Of a DNA stretch of 64,000 nt, positions 31,663 through 40,148 are shown one piece after another. A model generated the notes under the pieces. That model was not told where the DNA came from and made no database searches. It worked only from the letters and a program-made list of their open reading frames with translations. The DNA comes from Xenophilus aerolatus (GTDB lineage: Bacteria; Pseudomonadota; Gammaproteobacteria; Burkholderiales; Burkholderiaceae_C): contig QAIB01000009.1 of NCBI GenBank assembly GCA_030418545.1, positions 62,001 through 126,000 of the forward strand. Reading direction: 5' to 3'. Made by a program: the position numbers and the translations under genes. Every line of letters starts with the position of its first letter. Position 1 is the first letter of the stretch.

Positions 31663-31884
31663 TCAGGGTTTCATGCGCGAACGCACGTAGATCAGCACGA
31701 CGCCGATGGCGGCAGCCACGCCGCCCGGCACGGCGATGGCCCAGCCCGTGGCCGAGTCGCTGCGGGCCGTGGCGATGCCCAGCACCATCGTCAGCAGGCC
31801 GCCGTAGATCAGCACCCAGGTGAGGTTCTCGATCCAGTGGCGCTTCTTCTTCGAGGCCGTCGGGACCGGAATGGGCTCGGTCAT
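31663..31884 (-). CDS. Small two-helix membrane protein coupled to acyl-CoA dehydrogenase
   Basis: A 73-residue protein with a basic N-terminus (PTASKKKRHWIE) and two predicted membrane helices (NLTWVLIYGGLLTMVLGIAT and a C-terminal WAIAVPGGVAAAIGVVLIYV), ending in a short basic tail. No family is recognised. Its ATG overlaps the stop of the acyl-CoA dehydrogenase (TGATG), so expression is tied to that enzyme. It could anchor the dehydrogenase or its electron acceptor to the membrane; this is inference. Confidence 0.7.
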   Translation of the reverse strand: MTEPIPVPTASKKKRHWIENLTWVLIYGGLLTMVLGIATARSDSATGWAIAVPGGVAAAIGVVLIYVRSRMKP

Positions 31885-33719
31885 CAGAATGCGTCCTCCG
31901 GCAGTTGGGCGCACACCGGGTCGCGGCTCTCGACGACGTTGAGCCAGGCGCCGATCTTCGGCAGCTCGTAATGGAAGAAATAGGTCATGGCGCCGATTTT
32001 GCCGGCGGCCGTGGCGCTGCCCTTCTGCAAGGCGCACAGCGCCACGTCCAGCCACATCCAGGCGATGACCGTGTGGCCGAAGGCCTGCATGTAGGGGACG
32101 GCGTTGGCGAGTGCCTCGGCCGGGTTGCCGGTGGACCAGGCGGCGCGCGTGGCGGTGCCCACGCGTTCCAGCGCCGCACCCAGCGCCTTCGCATGCGGCG
32201 CGAGCTCGGGCACCGCCGCGGCGCGGCCGATGGTGGCGGCGACGCGGTCGCCCAGCAGCTTCAGGCCGCGGCCGCCTTCCATCAGCACCTTGCGGCCCAG
32301 CAGGTCGGCCGCCTGGATGCCGTGGGTGCCCTCGTGGATCATGTTGAGGCGGTTGTCGCGCCAGTACTGCTCCACCGGGAAGTCGCGCGTGTAGCCATAG
32401 CCGCCGTGGATCTGGATGGCGAGCGAATTCGCTTCGAGGCACCACTCGCTGGGGAAGCTCTTGGCGATGGGGGTGAGCACCTCCAGCAGCAGGCGCGCGT
32501 CGTCGGCGGCCTGCGGCTCGCCGGTCTTCTGTTCGTCCACCAGCTTGGCGCAGTACAGCTCCAGTGCCAGCGCGCCCTCGCAATACGCCTTCTGTGCCAG
32601 CAGCATGCGGCGCACGTCGGCGTGTTCGATGATGCGCACCTGCGGCTTGGCGGAGTCCTTCGCGACCGAACCGCCGGCCGCGTTGAGCGGCAAGCGCCCC
32701 TGCGGCCGGTTCTTCGCGTATTCCAGCGAGGCGTAGTAGCCTGCCAGGCCCAGCATGACGGCGGCGGTGCCCACGCCGATGCGGGCCTCGTTCATCATGT
32801 GGAACATGCAGTGCAGGCCCTTGCCGGGCTCGCCCACCAGGTAGCCCACGGCGCCCGCCTTGCCGCCGACCGGGTACTTGCCTTCGCCGAAGTTCAGCAG
32901 CGTGTTGGTGGTGCCGCGCCAGCCCAGCTTGTGGTTCAGGCCGGCCAGCGCCACGTCGTTGCGCTCGCCGGTCAGATGACCTTCGGTGTCGACCATGCGC
33001 TTGGGGACGATGAAGAGCGAGATGCCCTTGGTGCCCGGCACCAGCCTGCCTTCGGCATCGGGGATCTTGGCCAGCACGATGTGCACGATGTTCTCGGTCA
33101 GCTCGTGGTCGCCCGACGAGATCCACATCTTGTTGCCGGTGAGGCGGTAGCGCGGGCCGAGCGGGTCGCTCTCGAAATCGGGGCCGTCGGGCACGGCGCG
33201 CGTGGCCACGTCGGACAGCGAGGAACCGGCCTGCGGCTCCGACAGGCACATGGTGCCGGCCCAGCGACCGGAGAACTCGTTGAGCGCGAACACCTCCTTC
33301 TGCTTCTCGGTGCCGTGCACCATGAGCAGATTGGCGTTGCCGCTGGTGAGCATGTTGGAGCCGATGCTCACCGACGCGAGGCCGAAGAAGGCGTTGGCCG
33401 CGGCCTGCACCGTGTAGGGCAGCTGCATGCCGCCGATGTCGTAGTCCTGTGCGGCGGCCATCATGCCGCTCTCGACGAAGGCCGCGTGCGCGTCGTGCGT
33501 GGCCTGCGGCAGGATCACCTTCTCGCCGTCGAAATGCGGCTCCTGCGTGTCGACCAGGCGGTTGAAGGGCGCGTACTTCTCGCGCGCGATGCGCTCGCAG
33601 GTGTCGAGCACGGCGTCGAAGGTCTCGCGCGAATGGTCGGCGAAGCGTTCGCGGTCACTCAGTGTCTCGGCCGCGAGCCAGTCGTAGAGCAGGAAGTCGA
33701 GGGTGGGACGAAGCGACAT
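31884..33719 (-). CDS. Acyl-CoA dehydrogenase, long DmdC/AcdA-like form
   Basis: A 611-residue acyl-CoA dehydrogenase with an N-terminal extension and a C-terminal domain beyond the standard 380-residue fold. Start RPTLDFLLYDWL is typical of this group. FAD and substrate segments: CLSEPQAGSSLSDV, TGNKMWISSGDHE, and the active Glu in NMIHEGTHGIQAADLLGRKV. DmdC-type (3-methylmercaptopropionyl-CoA) and long-chain dehydrogenases share this form, so the true acyl group is open. It lies 47 bases behind the AraC gene on the same strand and overlaps the 73-residue membrane protein. Confidence 0.88.
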   Translation of the reverse strand: MSLRPTLDFLLYDWLAAETLSDRERFADHSRETFDAVLDTCERIAREKYAPFNRLVDTQEPHFDGEKVILPQATHDAHAAFVESGMMAAAQDYDIGGMQLPYTVQAAANAFFGLASVSIGSNMLTSGNANLLMVHGTEKQKEVFALNEFSGRWAGTMCLSEPQAGSSLSDVATRAVPDGPDFESDPLGPRYRLTGNKMWISSGDHELTENIVHIVLAKIPDAEGRLVPGTKGISLFIVPKRMVDTEGHLTGERNDVALAGLNHKLGWRGTTNTLLNFGEGKYPVGGKAGAVGYLVGEPGKGLHCMFHMMNEARIGVGTAAVMLGLAGYYASLEYAKNRPQGRLPLNAAGGSVAKDSAKPQVRIIEHADVRRMLLAQKAYCEGALALELYCAKLVDEQKTGEPQAADDARLLLEVLTPIAKSFPSEWCLEANSLAIQIHGGYGYTRDFPVEQYWRDNRLNMIHEGTHGIQAADLLGRKVLMEGGRGLKLLGDRVAATIGRAAAVPELAPHAKALGAALERVGTATRAAWSTGNPAEALANAVPYMQAFGHTVIAWMWLDVALCALQKGSATAAGKIGAMTYFFHYELPKIGAWLNVVESRDPVCAQLPEDAF

Positions 33720-33766: not shown

Positions 33767-34786
33767 TCAATGGGCCCGCTCTGACTCCTTGACGACACGC
33801 GCGGTGTCGATCGGGCGCTCGCCGAAACGGCTCTGGTACTGGGCCGCGAAATGGCCCGCGTGGAAGAAGCCGTAGCGCTGGGCGATCTGCGTCACCGGGG
33901 CCGGTGCGCCCTGCCCCGCCGCCTCGCGCAGGGCCTGGCGCACAAGATCCAGCCGCAGCCCGCGCCAATGGGCCATGGGGCTCTCGCCGGTGGCCTGCAG
34001 GAAGGCCTGCTGCAGGCTGCGCGCGCTGACGCCCAGGTGGCTGCACAGATCGACCAGGGTGCCCGGCGTGCCGGCATGGGCCCGCATGAAATCCTGCGCG
34101 CGGCGCACCGTGCGCGGCATCAGCGCGCGCCGCGCCGAGGCCTCGAGCGTGGGGCGGTGGCTGTGCGGCAGCTGCATCAGGAAGGTCGACAGCAGGTAGC
34201 TCTCGGCCTGGCGCGCGAGCGGCGAGCCGGAGAAGCCGGGGTCGGCATCGAGCGTCTGGCGCAAGCAGTGGATGAAGGCGACGGCCGGCGCCACCTCGGG
34301 CTGCTGCAGGCGCACCGCGGGGTCGAAGACGGGCGGGCCATGCACCTCGTGCTGCGCCAGTTGCTCGAGCTGCGCCATCACGGCCGACTGGGAGAAGCGC
34401 ACGATCAGGTGCGGGCTGTCGGCGGCCCAGCGCATGCGCAGCGATTCGGTGGGCGACGGCAGCGAGGCCGTCTCGCGGTCGGCCAGCACCTCCCGGCCGC
34501 CGCACCAGACGGCGGCACCGCCGCGCAGCGGGATCTGCAGCAGGTAGAAGGTGCCGAGGTGGCCGGGGTCGATGTCGACCGCCGGGCCGTACTGCACGTA
34601 GTTGAGGCTGATGTCGGCGCCCAGCGGTGCACTGTGGTGGCGCGCGTCGAGCCGGTCGCGGGCCTGGCAGGTGTTGAGCACGTGCGGGCAGAAGATGCGC
34701 GCCACGCGCTCGCGCGCCTGGTCCACGTCCCGGGTGTGGAACAGGCTGAAGCGCGACAGGGGCAGCGACGGGGCCAGGGTCGGCAT
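33767..34786 (-). CDS. AraC/XylS-family regulator, likely controller of the adjacent catabolic operon
   Basis: A 339-residue activator: an N-terminal AraC_binding_2-like (cupin) domain of the type in XylS, AntR and related aromatic-acid regulators, and a C-terminal double helix-turn-helix (LVDLCSHLGVSARSLQQAFL and ITQIAQRYGFFHAGHFAAQY). It diverges from the SDR-monooxygenase operon with a 193-base gap that should hold both promoters. An indole-cluster role (iifR-like) is a hypothesis from position only. It is also 47 bases upstream of the acyl-CoA dehydrogenase on its own strand, so read-through is possible. Confidence 0.85.
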   Translation of the reverse strand: MPTLAPSLPLSRFSLFHTRDVDQARERVARIFCPHVLNTCQARDRLDARHHSAPLGADISLNYVQYGPAVDIDPGHLGTFYLLQIPLRGGAAVWCGGREVLADRETASLPSPTESLRMRWAADSPHLIVRFSQSAVMAQLEQLAQHEVHGPPVFDPAVRLQQPEVAPAVAFIHCLRQTLDADPGFSGSPLARQAESYLLSTFLMQLPHSHRPTLEASARRALMPRTVRRAQDFMRAHAGTPGTLVDLCSHLGVSARSLQQAFLQATGESPMAHWRGLRLDLVRQALREAAGQGAPAPVTQIAQRYGFFHAGHFAAQYQSRFGERPIDTARVVKESERAH

Positions 34787-34979
34787 GGTGGAACCAATCT
34801 AGCAAATGCCGGGCCCGTAAGCATCGGGGAAGGCCAGAGGAGGCGCGCCGGCGCCACCCCGCCGCGCAAGCAAGGCGCACAAAGCTGCGCATCCGGGATG
34901 GGGCCTGCGTTTGCGGGATGCCGCGCGGCCACCACGCTGACTATCTTTCGGACCATTCCCACCCCACAGGAGTGACAGC

Positions 34980-35777
34980 ATGTTCAAGGGCCTGGCCGGC
35001 AAGGCCGCCATCGTGACCGGCGGCGCGACGATCATCGGCGCCGCCGTGGTGCGCGCACTGCAGGAGGCAGGGGTACGCGTGACCCTGGCCGACATCGACG
35101 CCGAGGGCGGCGCGCAGGTCGCCGCTGCCTGCGGCGGCGAAGGAACGGTGTGGTTCCGCCGCACCGACATTACCGACGACGCCCAGGTGCGCGCCTGCGC
35201 CGACGAGACCGCCGAGCGCTTCGGTCGCCTGGACTTCCTCGTCAACCTCGCATGCAGCTACGTGGACAACGGCCTGGCCTCCACACGCGCCGAGTGGCTC
35301 ACCACGCTCGACGTCAACGTAGCCAGTGCCGCGATGCTGCTGCAGGCGGCGCTGCCGCACATGAAGCGCCAGGGCGGCGGCGCGGTCGTGAACTTCACCA
35401 GCATCTCGTCGGGCGTCGCGCAGACCGGGCGCTGGCTGTACCCGGTGAGCAAGGCGGCGCTGGTGCAGCTCACCCGCAACATGGCGATGGACCTGGCGCC
35501 GGACAACGTGCGCGTCAACAGCGTGTCGCCGGGCTGGACCTGGTCCAACATCATGAACCAGCTCACCAACGGCGATCGCGCCAGGACCGACCGCGTCGCC
35601 GCGCCCTTCCACCTGCTGCGGCGCGTGGGCAACCCGGAGGAAGTGGCGCAGGTGGTGCTCTTCCTGTGCTCCGAGCACGCGAGCTTCGTCACCGGCGCCG
35701 ACTACGCGGTCGACGGCGGCTACTCGGCCATGGGCCCCGAGTCCTTCGAGCCGGCCATCCCGAAGCTGATGGCCTGA
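34980..35777 (+). CDS. SDR with non-canonical cofactor motifs, iifB-like position
   Basis: A 265-residue SDR, first gene of the catabolic operon. It deviates from classical SDRs: the cofactor loop reads TGGATIIGAAV and the NNAG site reads VNLACSYVDNG, although the catalytic Ser (NFTSISSG) and Tyr-x3-Lys (YPVSKAA) are kept. In the iif indole cluster the SDR (IifB) turns the first oxygenation product away from indigo formation. By order and partners this would be that enzyme. CAGGAG lies seven bases before the ATG. Confidence 0.8.
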   Translation: MFKGLAGKAAIVTGGATIIGAAVVRALQEAGVRVTLADIDAEGGAQVAAACGGEGTVWFRRTDITDDAQVRACADETAERFGRLDFLVNLACSYVDNGLASTRAEWLTTLDVNVASAAMLLQAALPHMKRQGGGAVVNFTSISSGVAQTGRWLYPVSKAALVQLTRNMAMDLAPDNVRVNSVSPGWTWSNIMNQLTNGDRARTDRVAAPFHLLRRVGNPEEVAQVVLFLCSEHASFVTGADYAVDGGYSAMGPESFEPAIPKLMA

Positions 35778-35813
35778 GACGAAACCCCCTTCATCCCTCC
35801 AGAGGAGACTTCC

Positions 35814-37064
35814 ATGCGCAAGATTCTCATCGTCGGCGGCGGCCAATCCGGCCTGCAACTCGCCCTGGGCCTGCAGGCCAGGGGCTACGAGGTCGGTGTC
35901 GCGTCCAACCGCACGCCGGACGACATCCGGGACGGCAAGGTCATGTCCAGCCAGTGCATGTTCCACGACAGCCTGCAGCTCGAGCGCGACCGCGGCCTCG
36001 CCTTCTGGGAGCAGGACTGCCCGCCGGTGGAGGGGATCTCCTTCGCCGTGCCGCACCCCGAGCAGCCCGGCGTGAAGGCGCTGGCCTGGAGCCATCGGCT
36101 CGACCGCATCGCGCAGTCGGTGGACCAGCGCGTGAAGGTGCCGGGCTGGATGGCGGAGTTCGAGCGGCGCGGTGGCCGCATCCTCTTCAAGGACGCGGAG
36201 ATCGAGGACCTGGAGCAGTGGTCGCAGCAGCACGACCTCGTCATCGTCGCCGCCGGCAAGGGCGCGATCGCGAAGATGTTCGAGCGCGACGCGACCCGCA
36301 GCCCCTACGACCGGCCGCAGCGCGCGCTGGCCCTGACCTACGTGCACGGCATGCGCCCGCGCGAGGAGCACAGCGCCGTCAACTTCAACCTGATCCCGGG
36401 CGTGGGCGAGTATTTCGTCTTCCCGGCGCTCACCACCAGCGGGCCGTGCGAGATCATGGTGTTCGAAGGCATTCCCAGTGGCCCCATGGATGGCTGGGCC
36501 AACGTCCGCACGCCGGCCGAGCACCTGGCGCGATCGCTGGAGATCCTGCGCACCTTCCTGCCCTGGGAGGCCGAGCGCTGCACGCAGGTCGAGCTCACCG
36601 ACGCCAACGGCATCCTCAGCGGCGCCTTCCCGCCCACGGTGCGGCGCCCGGTCGGCCGGCTGCCCAGCGGGCGGGCGGTGATGGGCATGGCCGATGCGGT
36701 GATGCTCAACGACCCGATCACCGGCCAGGGATCGAACAACGCGGCCAAGTTCGCCGACGCGGTGGAGCGCGCCATCGTGGCGCACGGCGACGCGCCTTTC
36801 GACGCCGCCTTCATGCGGGCGACCTTCGAAGGCTTCTGGGAGCGCTACGGCACCCATGTGTGCGGCTGGACCAACGCCATGCTCGCGCCCCCGCCACCGC
36901 ACGTCATGCAACTGCTCGGCACGGCGGCCGCGGTGCCGGCCGTGGCGCGGCGCATCGTCAACGGCTTCAACGACCCGACCGACTTCAGCCGCTTCTTCAT
37001 GAGCCCGGAGCGCAGCGAGGCCTATCTGGCCGAGGTCATGCCGGCCCAGGTGGAGGCCGCATGA
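35814..37064 (+). CDS. StyA-like flavin-dependent monooxygenase, iifC-like
   Basis: A 416-residue two-component (group E) flavoprotein monooxygenase: the FAD-binding GGGQSG is at residues 8-13, and the length and overall layout fit styrene monooxygenase oxygenase StyA and indole oxygenases (SMO/IndA/IifC). The DPITGQGSNNAAKFADAVE segment near residue 305 is the second FAD motif. It needs reduced FAD from a partner reductase, which is the next gene (ATGA overlap). Epoxidation of styrene or of the indole 2,3-bond are the two main options; the SDR and hydrolase neighbours favour indole. GAGGAG precedes the start. Confidence 0.85.
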   Translation: MRKILIVGGGQSGLQLALGLQARGYEVGVASNRTPDDIRDGKVMSSQCMFHDSLQLERDRGLAFWEQDCPPVEGISFAVPHPEQPGVKALAWSHRLDRIAQSVDQRVKVPGWMAEFERRGGRILFKDAEIEDLEQWSQQHDLVIVAAGKGAIAKMFERDATRSPYDRPQRALALTYVHGMRPREEHSAVNFNLIPGVGEYFVFPALTTSGPCEIMVFEGIPSGPMDGWANVRTPAEHLARSLEILRTFLPWEAERCTQVELTDANGILSGAFPPTVRRPVGRLPSGRAVMGMADAVMLNDPITGQGSNNAAKFADAVERAIVAHGDAPFDAAFMRATFEGFWERYGTHVCGWTNAMLAPPPPHVMQLLGTAAAVPAVARRIVNGFNDPTDFSRFFMSPERSEAYLAEVMPAQVEAA

Positions 37065-37627
37065 TGGCCGTGGAGGCGGTCGCTCCCGCCCTGCCCCCGC
37101 TGCAGGCCTTGCGCCGCGCGGCCTGCCTGCCGCCGGCGGACTTCCGGCTGGCGATGCGCCGCCTGGCGGGCGCCGTGTGCATCGTCGGCACCACCGACGG
37201 GCAGCGGCCCACCGGGCTCACGGCCACCGCGGTCACGGCGCTGTCGGCGGAGCCGGCGCGGCTGCTCGCCTGCATCAACCTCAAGGGCAGCACCTTCCGC
37301 AGCATCGCCGACAGCCGCCGCATGAGCGTGAACCTGCTGGCCCTGCACCACGCGGACCTGGCGACGCGTTTCGGCGGTGCCGGCCCGGGCGCCGGCGAGC
37401 TCTTCGAGCCCGGCCGTTGGGATACCCTCACCACCGGCGCCCCCATCCTGCGCGACGCGCTGGTCAGCTTCGACTGCGTCGTGGACGAGATGATGGTCGC
37501 CCACAGCCATGCGGTGATGATCGGCGAGATCAAGTCGGTGCAGATGCACCCCGGGCGGCATGCGCCGCTGCTCTACGCCGACGGCCGCTACACCACCCTG
37601 CATCCCCAAGGAGAAACGACCCCATGA
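37061..37627 (+). CDS. NAD(P)H:flavin reductase, StyB/IifD-like
   Basis: A 188-residue flavin reductase of the HpaC/StyB type: the start LAGAVCIVGTTDGQRPTGLTATAVTAL is typical, with RNLLALHHADLA-like and YADGRYTTL ends. It supplies reduced FAD to the preceding oxygenase. ATG at 37061 overlaps the oxygenase stop (ATGA) and has GGAGG upstream; a second ATG follows at once. Both sit in the same operon as the SDR and hydrolase-fusion genes. Confidence 0.88.
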   Translation: MMAVEAVAPALPPLQALRRAACLPPADFRLAMRRLAGAVCIVGTTDGQRPTGLTATAVTALSAEPARLLACINLKGSTFRSIADSRRMSVNLLALHHADLATRFGGAGPGAGELFEPGRWDTLTTGAPILRDALVSFDCVVDEMMVAHSHAVMIGEIKSVQMHPGRHAPLLYADGRYTTLHPQGETTP

Positions 37628-38874
37628 GCTCCACCCCATCGCAACGCCCACGGCGCGTGCGCATCCAGGCCGCCGACGGCAGCGGCGCGTTCGACGGCTA
37701 CCTCGCGCTGCCTGCCTCGGGCAAGGGACCCGGCATCGTGATCGCGCAGGAAATCTTCGGCGTGAACAAAACGATGCGCGAGCTGGCCGACTACTACGCC
37801 GAGGAAGGCTACGTCGCCCTGGTGCCCGACCTGTTCTGGCGCCAGGAGCCGGGCATCGACATCGACGAGTCGCAGTTCGACCGTGCACTGGCGCTCTACC
37901 AGGGCTTCGACGAGGCCAAGGGCGTCGAGGACATCCAGGCCGCGCTGGACGCCCTGCGTGCACTCCCGGAGTTCGCCGGGCGTGCGGGCGTGCTGGGCTT
38001 CTGCCTCGGCGGCAAGCTGGCCTACCTGGCCGCCTGCCGCACCGATTGCGAGGTTGCCGTGTCGTACTACGGCGTCGGCATCGAGCAGGCGCTGGGCGAG
38101 GCCGACCGGCTGGGCGGCAAGCCGCTGGTGCTGCACATCGCCGAGCAGGACGGCTTCTGCCCGCCCGAGGCGCGCAACGCCATCCTCCAGGCGCTGCAGG
38201 GGCGCCCCGGCGTCGAGCTGTACGTCTACCCCGGCGCGGACCATGCCTTCGCACGCACCGGCAGCAGCCACTACCACAAGCCCTCGGCGCTGATGGCCCA
38301 CCAGCGCAGCATCGCCGCCTTCCGCGGCGCGCTGGGGCCGCACTACGACTTCTCGGCGCTGTGGGACAAGCACTGCGAGTACGAGTTCGCGACGCGCGAC
38401 GTCGACGCGACCATGGCCACCATGGTGAGCGAGCCCTACGTCAACCACATCCCGACCATGACCGGCGGCGTGGGCCACGCGATGCTGGCGCGCTTCTATC
38501 GCCACCACTTCGTCAATGCGAACCCGCCCGACACCACGCTGATTCCCATCTCGCGCACGGTGGGCACGAGCCAGATCGTGGACGAGATGCTGTTCTGCTT
38601 CACCCACACCTGCGAGATCGACTGGATGCTGCCCGGCATCGCACCGACGGGAAAGCGCGTGGAGATACCCCTGGTCGCGATCGTGAAGTTCCGCGGCGAC
38701 AAGCTCTACCACGAGCACATCTACTGGGACCAGGCCAGCGTGCTGGTGCAGATCGGCAAGCTGGACCCGAAGGGGCTGCCCGTGGCGGGCGCGGAAACGG
38801 CGCGCAAGCTGCTGGACGAGCACCTGCCGTCGAACACGCTGATGGCGAACTGGGCGAGTTCCGAAGGCCGCTGA
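37624..38874 (+). CDS. Dienelactone-hydrolase/SnoaL fusion protein, iifA-like
   Basis: A 416-residue protein made of a dienelactone-hydrolase-type alpha/beta-hydrolase (about residues 1-240) and a C-terminal SnoaL/NTF2-like region (about 245-400). The first domain has the Cys nucleophile in GFCLGG near residue 126, Asp in IAEQDGF near 174 and His in GADHAF near 207. AAGGAG lies before the ATG, which overlaps the reductase stop (ATGA). In the iif cluster, IifA forms anthranilate and was described as comparable with cofactor-free oxygenases, whose known members have the alpha/beta-hydrolase fold. A lactonase or hydrolase role for another aromatic product is the alternative. Confidence 0.75.
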   Translation: MSSTPSQRPRRVRIQAADGSGAFDGYLALPASGKGPGIVIAQEIFGVNKTMRELADYYAEEGYVALVPDLFWRQEPGIDIDESQFDRALALYQGFDEAKGVEDIQAALDALRALPEFAGRAGVLGFCLGGKLAYLAACRTDCEVAVSYYGVGIEQALGEADRLGGKPLVLHIAEQDGFCPPEARNAILQALQGRPGVELYVYPGADHAFARTGSSHYHKPSALMAHQRSIAAFRGALGPHYDFSALWDKHCEYEFATRDVDATMATMVSEPYVNHIPTMTGGVGHAMLARFYRHHFVNANPPDTTLIPISRTVGTSQIVDEMLFCFTHTCEIDWMLPGIAPTGKRVEIPLVAIVKFRGDKLYHEHIYWDQASVLVQIGKLDPKGLPVAGAETARKLLDEHLPSNTLMANWASSEGR

Positions 38875-38922
38875 GACCTTCGTTCGCAACACGCCCCGTT
38901 GCGCCGGGCGCGTGCAAAGAAA

Positions 38923-38945
38923 AAGGCCCTGCATCGCAGGGCCTT
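38923..38945. terminator. Bidirectional hairpin terminator
   Basis: AAGGCCCTGC-N3-GCAGGGCCTT: a ten-base perfect stem with a three-base loop, preceded by an A-run on the plus strand and followed by TCTCGTT. It lies between the convergent iifA-like and thiolase genes and can stop transcription in both directions. Confidence 0.85.
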
Positions 38946-38972
38946 CTCGTTCGTGCAGCAGGTGCTGTGCGA

Positions 38973-40148
38973 TCAGAGCACTTCGAACACGCCCGCCGCG
39001 CCCATGCCGCCGCCGATGCACATCGTGACGACGACCTTCTTGGCGCCGCGGCGCTTGCCTTCGATCAGGGCGTGGCCCGTGAGGCGCTGGCCGCTCACGC
39101 CGTAGGGATGGCCCACGGCGATGGCGCCGCCGTTGACGTTCAGGCGGTCGTCGGGCAGGCCCAGCTTGTCGCGGCAGTAGAGCACCTGCACGGCGAAGGC
39201 CTCGTTCAGCTCCCACAGGTCGATGTCGCCCACCGTGAGGCCCAGCTTCTTGAGCACCTTGGGGATCGCGAAGACGGGGCCGATGCCCATCTCGTCGGGC
39301 TCGCAGCCGGCCACCGAGAAGCCCAGGAAGCGGCCCAGGGGCTTGAGGCCCTTGCGCTCGGCGTACTGTTCGCTCACGACCACGCAGGCGCCGCCGCCGT
39401 CGGAGAACTGGCTGGCGTTGCCGGCCGAGATCAGGCCGCCGGGGATGGCCGGGCGGATGCCGCTGATGCCTTCCTTGGTGGTGCCGGGACGGATGCCCTC
39501 GTCGTTCTCGACGGTGACTTCCTTGGTGATCAGGCCCAGCTGGCCGTCGGCCACGCCGGCCAGCACGGTGATGGGGGCGATCTCGTCCTTGAACTTGCCG
39601 GCTTCCAGCGCGGCGGTGGCGCGCTGCTGGCTGCGCGCGCCGTACTCGTCCATCGCGTCGCGGCCGATGTTGTAGCGCTTGGCGACCTGCTCGGCCGTCT
39701 GCAGCATGTTCCAGTAGATCTCGGGCTTGTGCTTGACCAGCCAGGGGTCGGTCATCATGTGCTTGTTCATCTCGTTCTGCACGCACGAGATGCTCTCCAC
39801 GCCGCCGGCCACGTACACGTCGCCCTCGCCCGCGATGATGCGCTGCGAGGCGGTGGCGATGGTCTGCAGGCCCGAGGAGCAGAAGCGGTTGATGGTCATG
39901 CCCGAGGTGGTGATGGGCAGGCCGGCGCGCAGCGCGATCTGGCGCGCGATGTTGGCGCCGGTGGCGCCTTCGGGGTTGGCGCAGCCCATGATGACGTCGT
40001 CGACCTCGGCACCGTCGATGCCGGCACGCTGCACGGCGTGCTGCACCGCGTGGCCGCCCAGGGTGGCGCCGTGCGTCATGTTGAAGGCACCCTTCCAGCT
40101 CTTGGCGAGCGGGGTACGGGCGGTGGAAACGATCACGGCGCTGGTCAT
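38973..40148 (-). CDS. Acetyl-CoA acyltransferase (thiolase)
   Basis: A 391-residue thiolase of the FadA/AtoB family. Active Cys in RFCSSGLQT near residue 90, His in [17 protein letters not shown] and second Cys in CIGGGMG near the end are all present. It makes or splits beta-ketoacyl-CoA, the last step of beta-oxidation. It lies last in a minus-strand run that begins with the FadB/FadJ-like gene, with the M20 peptidase between them and short gaps of 33 and 19 bases, so all three may share a transcript. Confidence 0.92.

Follow-up and report, generated by a model that had tools for sequence, protein, structure and literature searches.

A five-gene locus at positions 33767–38874 of a 64,000-nucleotide stretch of the Xenophilus aerolatus genome (hereafter the window) consists of a divergent regulator gene, R, and a plus-strand operon of four genes, B, C, D and A, which with considerable confidence can be read as an inducible operon for the conversion of indole to anthranilate via the iif/ind pathway. 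On sequence comparison it is a well-supported variant of that known pathway, marked by a reductase that is not orthologous, a gene order that recurs in a few other clusters and a conserved chromosomal site; its function, assigned by homology, is likely. The operon is a gene-level candidate for indole use or removal in a Xenophilus-like bacterium and fits the isolation of a Xenophilus on indole: strain IDO4, obtained with indole as sole carbon source, formed yellowish products and took almost a week for 100 mg/L, as did two Comamonas strains (PMC4675989; papers are cited by PubMed Central, PMC, number).

R (33767–34786, minus strand, 339 amino acids, aa) is an AraC/XylS-type regulator with AraC_binding_2, HTH_18 and HTH_AraC above the curated Pfam cut-offs, and is separated from the operon by 193 bases (34787–34979) that presumably hold the operator and promoter. 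B (34980–35777, 265 aa) is an IifB-like short-chain dehydrogenase (SDR) with adh_short_C2 and related models above curated cut-offs, C (35814–37064, 416 aa) an IifC/IndA-like group E flavoprotein of the indole monooxygenase type with Smoa_sbd above cut-off, D (37061–37627, 188 aa) a flavin reductase not of the IifD type, and A (37624–38874, 416 aa) an IifA-like fusion of DLH and SnoaL domains with DLH and SnoaL_2 above curated cut-offs. All frames are open, and long open reading frames in opposite frames were taken, by judgement, as artefacts of high GC content. B and C are 36 bases apart, while C, D and A are joined by two ATGA overlaps (37061–37064 and 37624–37627). This bears out the original prediction, made from the sequence alone, which had placed an AraC regulator divergent from an SDR, a StyA-like oxygenase, a flavin reductase and a DLH fusion at these positions and had three of the four genes joined in this way.

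The five-gene set is not a chance assembly: in a survey with aligned A proteins, which covered the loci of the best 80 of 561 confirmed relatives, ten of the 80 loci had it with its order kept and at 60–100% identity per protein (gene calls in this survey rest on chosen identity thresholds of 40–45%). The window is part of a 202-kb contig in a genome of 5.84 Mb and 47 contigs, and among records that bear a name Xenophilus sp. E41 comes closest, with all five proteins 100% identical.

Oxygenase C and fusion protein A

The Acinetobacter baumannii operon of Lin 2015 served as the iif reference and was taken from NZ_CP077849.1 (L121), where all ten forward primers published in PMC4577076 lie inside the right iif genes, six exactly and four with 1–2 mismatches. 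This 3.66-Mb record is named a plasmid and looks like a chromosome. Alignment with this operon, used in place of the Acinetobacter sp. O153 proteins that had been suggested, and with the cluster of Cupriavidus sp. IDO gave identities of 59% and 75% for A, 56% and 66% for B (to IifB and the IDO SDR), and 57% and 64% for C. The iif-like parts claimed by the original prediction stood for A, B and C, which are clear iif/ind relatives, and fell for the reductase, which is no IifD orthologue (~26% identity); on sequence grounds its interpretation is largely right.

Against PDB entry 7z4x, which I take to be VpIndA1, C scored 607 bits. The structure paper for this entry is cited in PMC13101512, which gives the fingerprint S46-Q48-M50-V/I73-I76-A96 for indole monooxygenases and N46-V48-H50-Y73-H76-S96 for styrene monooxygenases. 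When residues 45, 47, 49, 72, 75 and 100 of C were taken as the equivalents, the window protein read S, Q, M, V, I and A, agreeing with the indole-type references at six of six positions, and the identical six residues were found in the A. baumannii, IDO and Burkholderia pyrrocinia proteins. Three annotated StyA proteins carried N, V, H and S at columns 1–3 and 6, as expected, and G and Y at columns 4 and 5, so that these two columns are placed by spacing only. A tree of 27 oxygenase rows, one of which bears a label (Ska) assigned by the analysis itself, split off the three StyA rows at 100/100 and left the window protein on the A. baumannii and IDO side, with six rows from window-type clusters forming one group (95/100).

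Two side observations concern this enzyme family. PDB chain 9lrq is labelled as an alanine-phosphoribitol ligase, yet 397 of the 405 compared residues agree with A. baumannii IifC, and the label looks wrong. Four genomes of the genus that lack the operon (L163/G010, L164/G007, L165/G011 and G001:C19) hold another relative of the indole monooxygenases at 62–64% identity, and no full-length match to A was found in G010, G007, G011 or G001.

A agrees with published IifA in its DLH Pfam family and in its length of 416 aa (PMC4577076), and IifA has been described as a DLH-family protein with a SnoaL-type C-terminal domain (PMC7225977). Residues E43, C127, D176 and H207 of A are invariant in all 88 A-type proteins aligned. 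By homology these are presumably the active-site residues of dienelactone hydrolase. A full-length model of A, built with 22 sequences (mean predicted local distance difference test score, pLDDT, 83.7), matched dienelactone hydrolase with a template modelling (TM) score of 0.92 by target. The named top rows of the Foldseek search with this model were hydrolase-type folds or domains only, and the C-terminal domain was therefore modelled and searched alone (mean pLDDT 77.9). Its best match was AclR (E 1.4e-7), which the PDB title calls a putative hydroxylase, followed by TsrD, AknH, SnoaL and SnoaL2. L038 (G006) and L039 (G012) each hold a second DLH and SnoaL protein, more distant at ~51% identity to A, without adjoining B, C or D.

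Proposed pathway and rival readings

The proposed sequence of reactions would begin with D, which would reduce flavin adenine dinucleotide (FAD) with NAD(P)H. With the reduced flavin and O2, C would epoxidise indole at C2–C3, water would open the epoxide to the 2,3-dihydrodiol, and B would oxidise the dihydrodiol to 3-hydroxyindolin-2-one, from which A would form anthranilate (C8H7NO2 + O2 -> C7H7NO2 + CO2, by my own arithmetic). From the fold models I infer a division of roles within A: the SnoaL domain would act as the oxygenating part by letting the C3 carbanion take O2 without a cofactor, whereupon the C2–C3 bond would break, and the DLH domain, catalytically equipped with an intact active site, would help to open or hold the lactam. 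Anthranilate could then pass to catechol through the AndA dioxygenase of the genome.

R belongs to the same family as the regulators of the reference clusters, at 31% identity to A. baumannii IifR and 37% to the one next to the IDO cluster. It had been predicted to be of the XylS/AntR type, of which the AraC/XylS assignment stood by Pfam, whereas the AndR equivalog model gave R only 159.9 bits against a cut-off of 350. R was rejected as the anthranilate regulator AndR, and another gene elsewhere in the genome scores 484.9 bits with this model. Given the 31–37% identity and an AndR score so far below the cut-off, the ligand is a matter of proposal: R may sense indole or a product and activate the divergent promoter. 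An imperfect direct repeat in the divergent region (34885–34903 and 34905–34923; 14 of 19 positions, offset 20) is not significant by itself, as it was reached in 173 of 2000 shuffles. Among 11 related regions, six had their best repeat at the offset of 20, which the five Hydrogenophaga-type ones did not, and the repeat can be taken as a tentative lead for an operator.

The gene content of the genome suggests that it can take anthranilate further. On contig C44, AndAc (825 bits, cut-off 750) has AndR (485 bits, cut-off 350) as its neighbour, while no genome match to an AntA-type anthranilate dioxygenase exceeded its cut-off, and AntA was dropped in favour of AndAc as the enzyme of this step. 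A PRK08255-type protein (1355 bits, cut-off 1078) might be part of a CoA-linked route. Tryptophanase gave no match in the genome, and the E. coli control matched. These genes bear on whether the operon serves detoxification only, the conversion to anthranilate relieving the toxicity of indole and not supporting growth. Lin 2015 presented iifC as a detoxification gene (PMC4577076), the operon encodes no step after anthranilate and AndAc is not linked to it; set against this are the presence of AndAc and AndR and the growth of strain IDO4 on indole alone (PMC4675989). A purely protective role seems unlikely, although it fares better than the other rivals.

Several points weigh against the indole-to-anthranilate assignment as a whole. 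Two of the six fingerprint columns have no anchor from the StyA rows, four being anchored, and R is weakly related to the regulators of the reference clusters. D shares 24–27% identity with four IifD-type reductases that are 44–60% identical among themselves, and is by this measure not an IifD orthologue. A is not specific to indole clusters, since 22 of the 80 loci, some of them at contig ends, have none of three kinds of ring oxygenase nearby. AndAc does not track the operon either: it exceeded its cut-off in 11 of 15 genus genomes, comprising five of five operon carriers and six of ten others, which makes the co-occurrence uninformative. Finally, a close iif relative, the dcd cluster of Acinetobacter soli GFJ2, acts on and degrades 3,4-dichloroaniline (PMC10974035).

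The dcd cluster also speaks for a reading in which the same kind of chemistry serves a different physiological substrate, such as a substituted indole, a chloroaniline or some other N-aromatic compound, with indole as a side substrate only, and the window regulator and reductase do differ from the iif ones. On the other hand, C carries the indole-type fingerprint. Its distance from the A. baumannii protein (57% identity) exceeds that between the A. soli protein and IifC, but this is equally true of the IDO-type enzyme, which comes from a published indole degrader and falls on the same side of the tree as C. Another substrate appears improbable. A styrene or general sulfoxidation/epoxidation system can be dismissed almost entirely: C does match the StyA equivalog model and Pfam Smoa_sbd, but its 222 bits are far under the 550 required for StyA, C lacks the styrene fingerprint, the StyA rows stand apart in the tree, and no styrene-oxide isomerase gene adjoins, as the interval from R to the thiolase gene holds R, B, C, D and A and none besides. 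C is thereby ruled out as a StyA styrene monooxygenase by score, fingerprint and tree; best matches of the styrene type had been named beforehand as grounds for abandoning the prediction, and what was found instead is that A, B and C align with iif/ind proteins and C stands away from StyA.

Reductase exchange and the chromosomal site

While it is not of the IifD type, D is present as an operon-encoded flavin reductase partner, with Flavin_Reduct well over its cut-off (117.6 bits against 27). Across the 80 loci, an indole-type oxygenase lies within 6 kb of A in 40. The window arrangement, R<BCDA with a window-type D, accounts for ten loci, BCDA with an IifD-type D for four, two oxygenase genes with an IifD-type D for 13 and the order A-B-C-D for another 13. 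A search of full-text literature found no report of the operon form with a window-type reductase in titles and abstract openings, many subscription papers lying outside its reach.

The same ten loci with a window-type D, and no others of the best 80, are flanked by an acyl-CoA dehydrogenase and a thiolase (at least 60% identity), a site common to two Variovorax and five Hydrogenophaga-type loci. In the window, these flanking genes are context outside the pathway and correspond to the fatty-acid locus in which the operon had been predicted to sit: the dehydrogenase (611 aa, start inferred) occupies 31884–33719 and the thiolase (391 aa) 38973–40148, both on the minus strand. Among 15 genus genomes, the operon stands between both genes in five, the genes adjoin without it in nine, and a contig edge intervenes in one. 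The gap between A and the thiolase gene is ~2.8–3.3 kb in L046–L050, with other open reading frames inside it in L049. Compared with Variovorax boronicumulans Xaverov, the operon proteins are 78–88% identical, the dehydrogenase 83% and the thiolase 93%, and on these identities a recent arrival fits no better than descent at an old site with later losses. The window-type D, kept in ten of ten loci at this site, lends itself to testing whether a dedicated reductase is required by indole monooxygenases.

Between A and the converging thiolase gene, a terminator-like hairpin with a T-rich tail on the minus strand (38919–38948) would, judging by its folding energy, terminate the thiolase transcript; the folded stretch 38911–38955 reached −24.5 kcal/mol with a z of −6.26. 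Pattern scans for sigma-70 promoters and terminators gave no match and did not list this hairpin either.

The survey also brought up other neighbours of A. A Rieske oxygenase lies near A in 11 of the 80 loci and an FMO-like flavoprotein in seven. The latter, found without an indole monooxygenase (L066, L078, L082, L083, L095, L100 and L112) and mostly in the order R<B...A, belongs to PF00743 in both loci tested, L066 and L100, and is possibly a different first enzyme for the same pathway. Rieske oxygenase and SDR genes stand beside A in pCAR1 (L122, 3700–9230), in L062 (8001–12618) and in ten further loci of the 80; the pCAR1 stretch additionally holds an isochorismatase-type hydrolase and antABC. 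These clusters possibly represent a dioxygenase-based indole route, and the full-text literature search, within the parts of papers it covered, found no paper on the Rieske/IifA pairing.

A wider reading, which I hold tentatively and with slightly more doubt than belief, is that IifA acts as a portable module for splitting dioxindole and has joined ring-attacking enzymes of at least three unrelated kinds: group E indole monooxygenases (with an IifD-type, fused or exchanged reductase), Rieske dioxygenases, among them that of pCAR1, and FMO-like flavoproteins. The window would then represent the reductase-exchange branch at a fixed site, and several uncharacterised clusters would be alternative indole pathways meeting at 3-hydroxyindolin-2-one. 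The occurrence of IifA-type proteins next to unrelated ring oxygenases predicts further, directly testable indole pathways.

Comparison with known indole systems

The iifABCDE/iifR genes of Acinetobacter (A. baumannii ATCC 19606 and sp. O153) share with the window full-length homologues of A, B and C at 56–59% identity, a flavin reductase and an AraC-type regulator. Their order is A-B-C-D-E with R downstream, whereas the window has R<B-C-D-A; their reductase is of the IifD type, to which window D is 26% identical; and no iifE adjoins the window operon. In A. baumannii, indole raises iifA–D 15–25 fold, and indigo formation is lost in iifC and iifR mutants (PMC4577076).

The cluster of Providencia rettgeri GS (PMC9871250) resembles the window in having an oxygenase, a reductase, an SDR and an AraC regulator for indole. 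However, GS-A carries the annotation of a PF04199 cyclase/arylformamidase, whereas window A is a DLH and SnoaL protein, and GS-BCDA was rejected as the same gene set on the strength of the table of that paper, which puts GS-A in another family.

The Cupriavidus sp. IDO cluster (L086) comes from a strain that uses indole and has more than one cluster of this kind (PMC6221969). Like the window, it has a divergent R at its head and related A, B and C (75%, 66% and 64%), but its order is R<A-B-C-D and it has an IifD-type reductase, 47% identical to that of A. baumannii and 26% to window D. Clusters of the Variovorax VpStyA1/VpStyA2B type (PMC6017014) follow an R<B-C...A order, as does the window, and in V. 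paradoxus 2u118 (L123) C is 61–64% and A 76% identical to the window proteins; in contrast to the window, they have a pair of oxygenase genes, of which the second belongs to a longer frame that also encodes an IifD-type reductase part, and no stand-alone reductase of the window type. Delftia and Paucibacter have BCDA clusters (L102, L103, L114 and L073) that share with the window both the order R<B-C-D-A and a single C gene, and differ from it in their IifD-type reductase and in a location other than between acyl-CoA dehydrogenase and thiolase.

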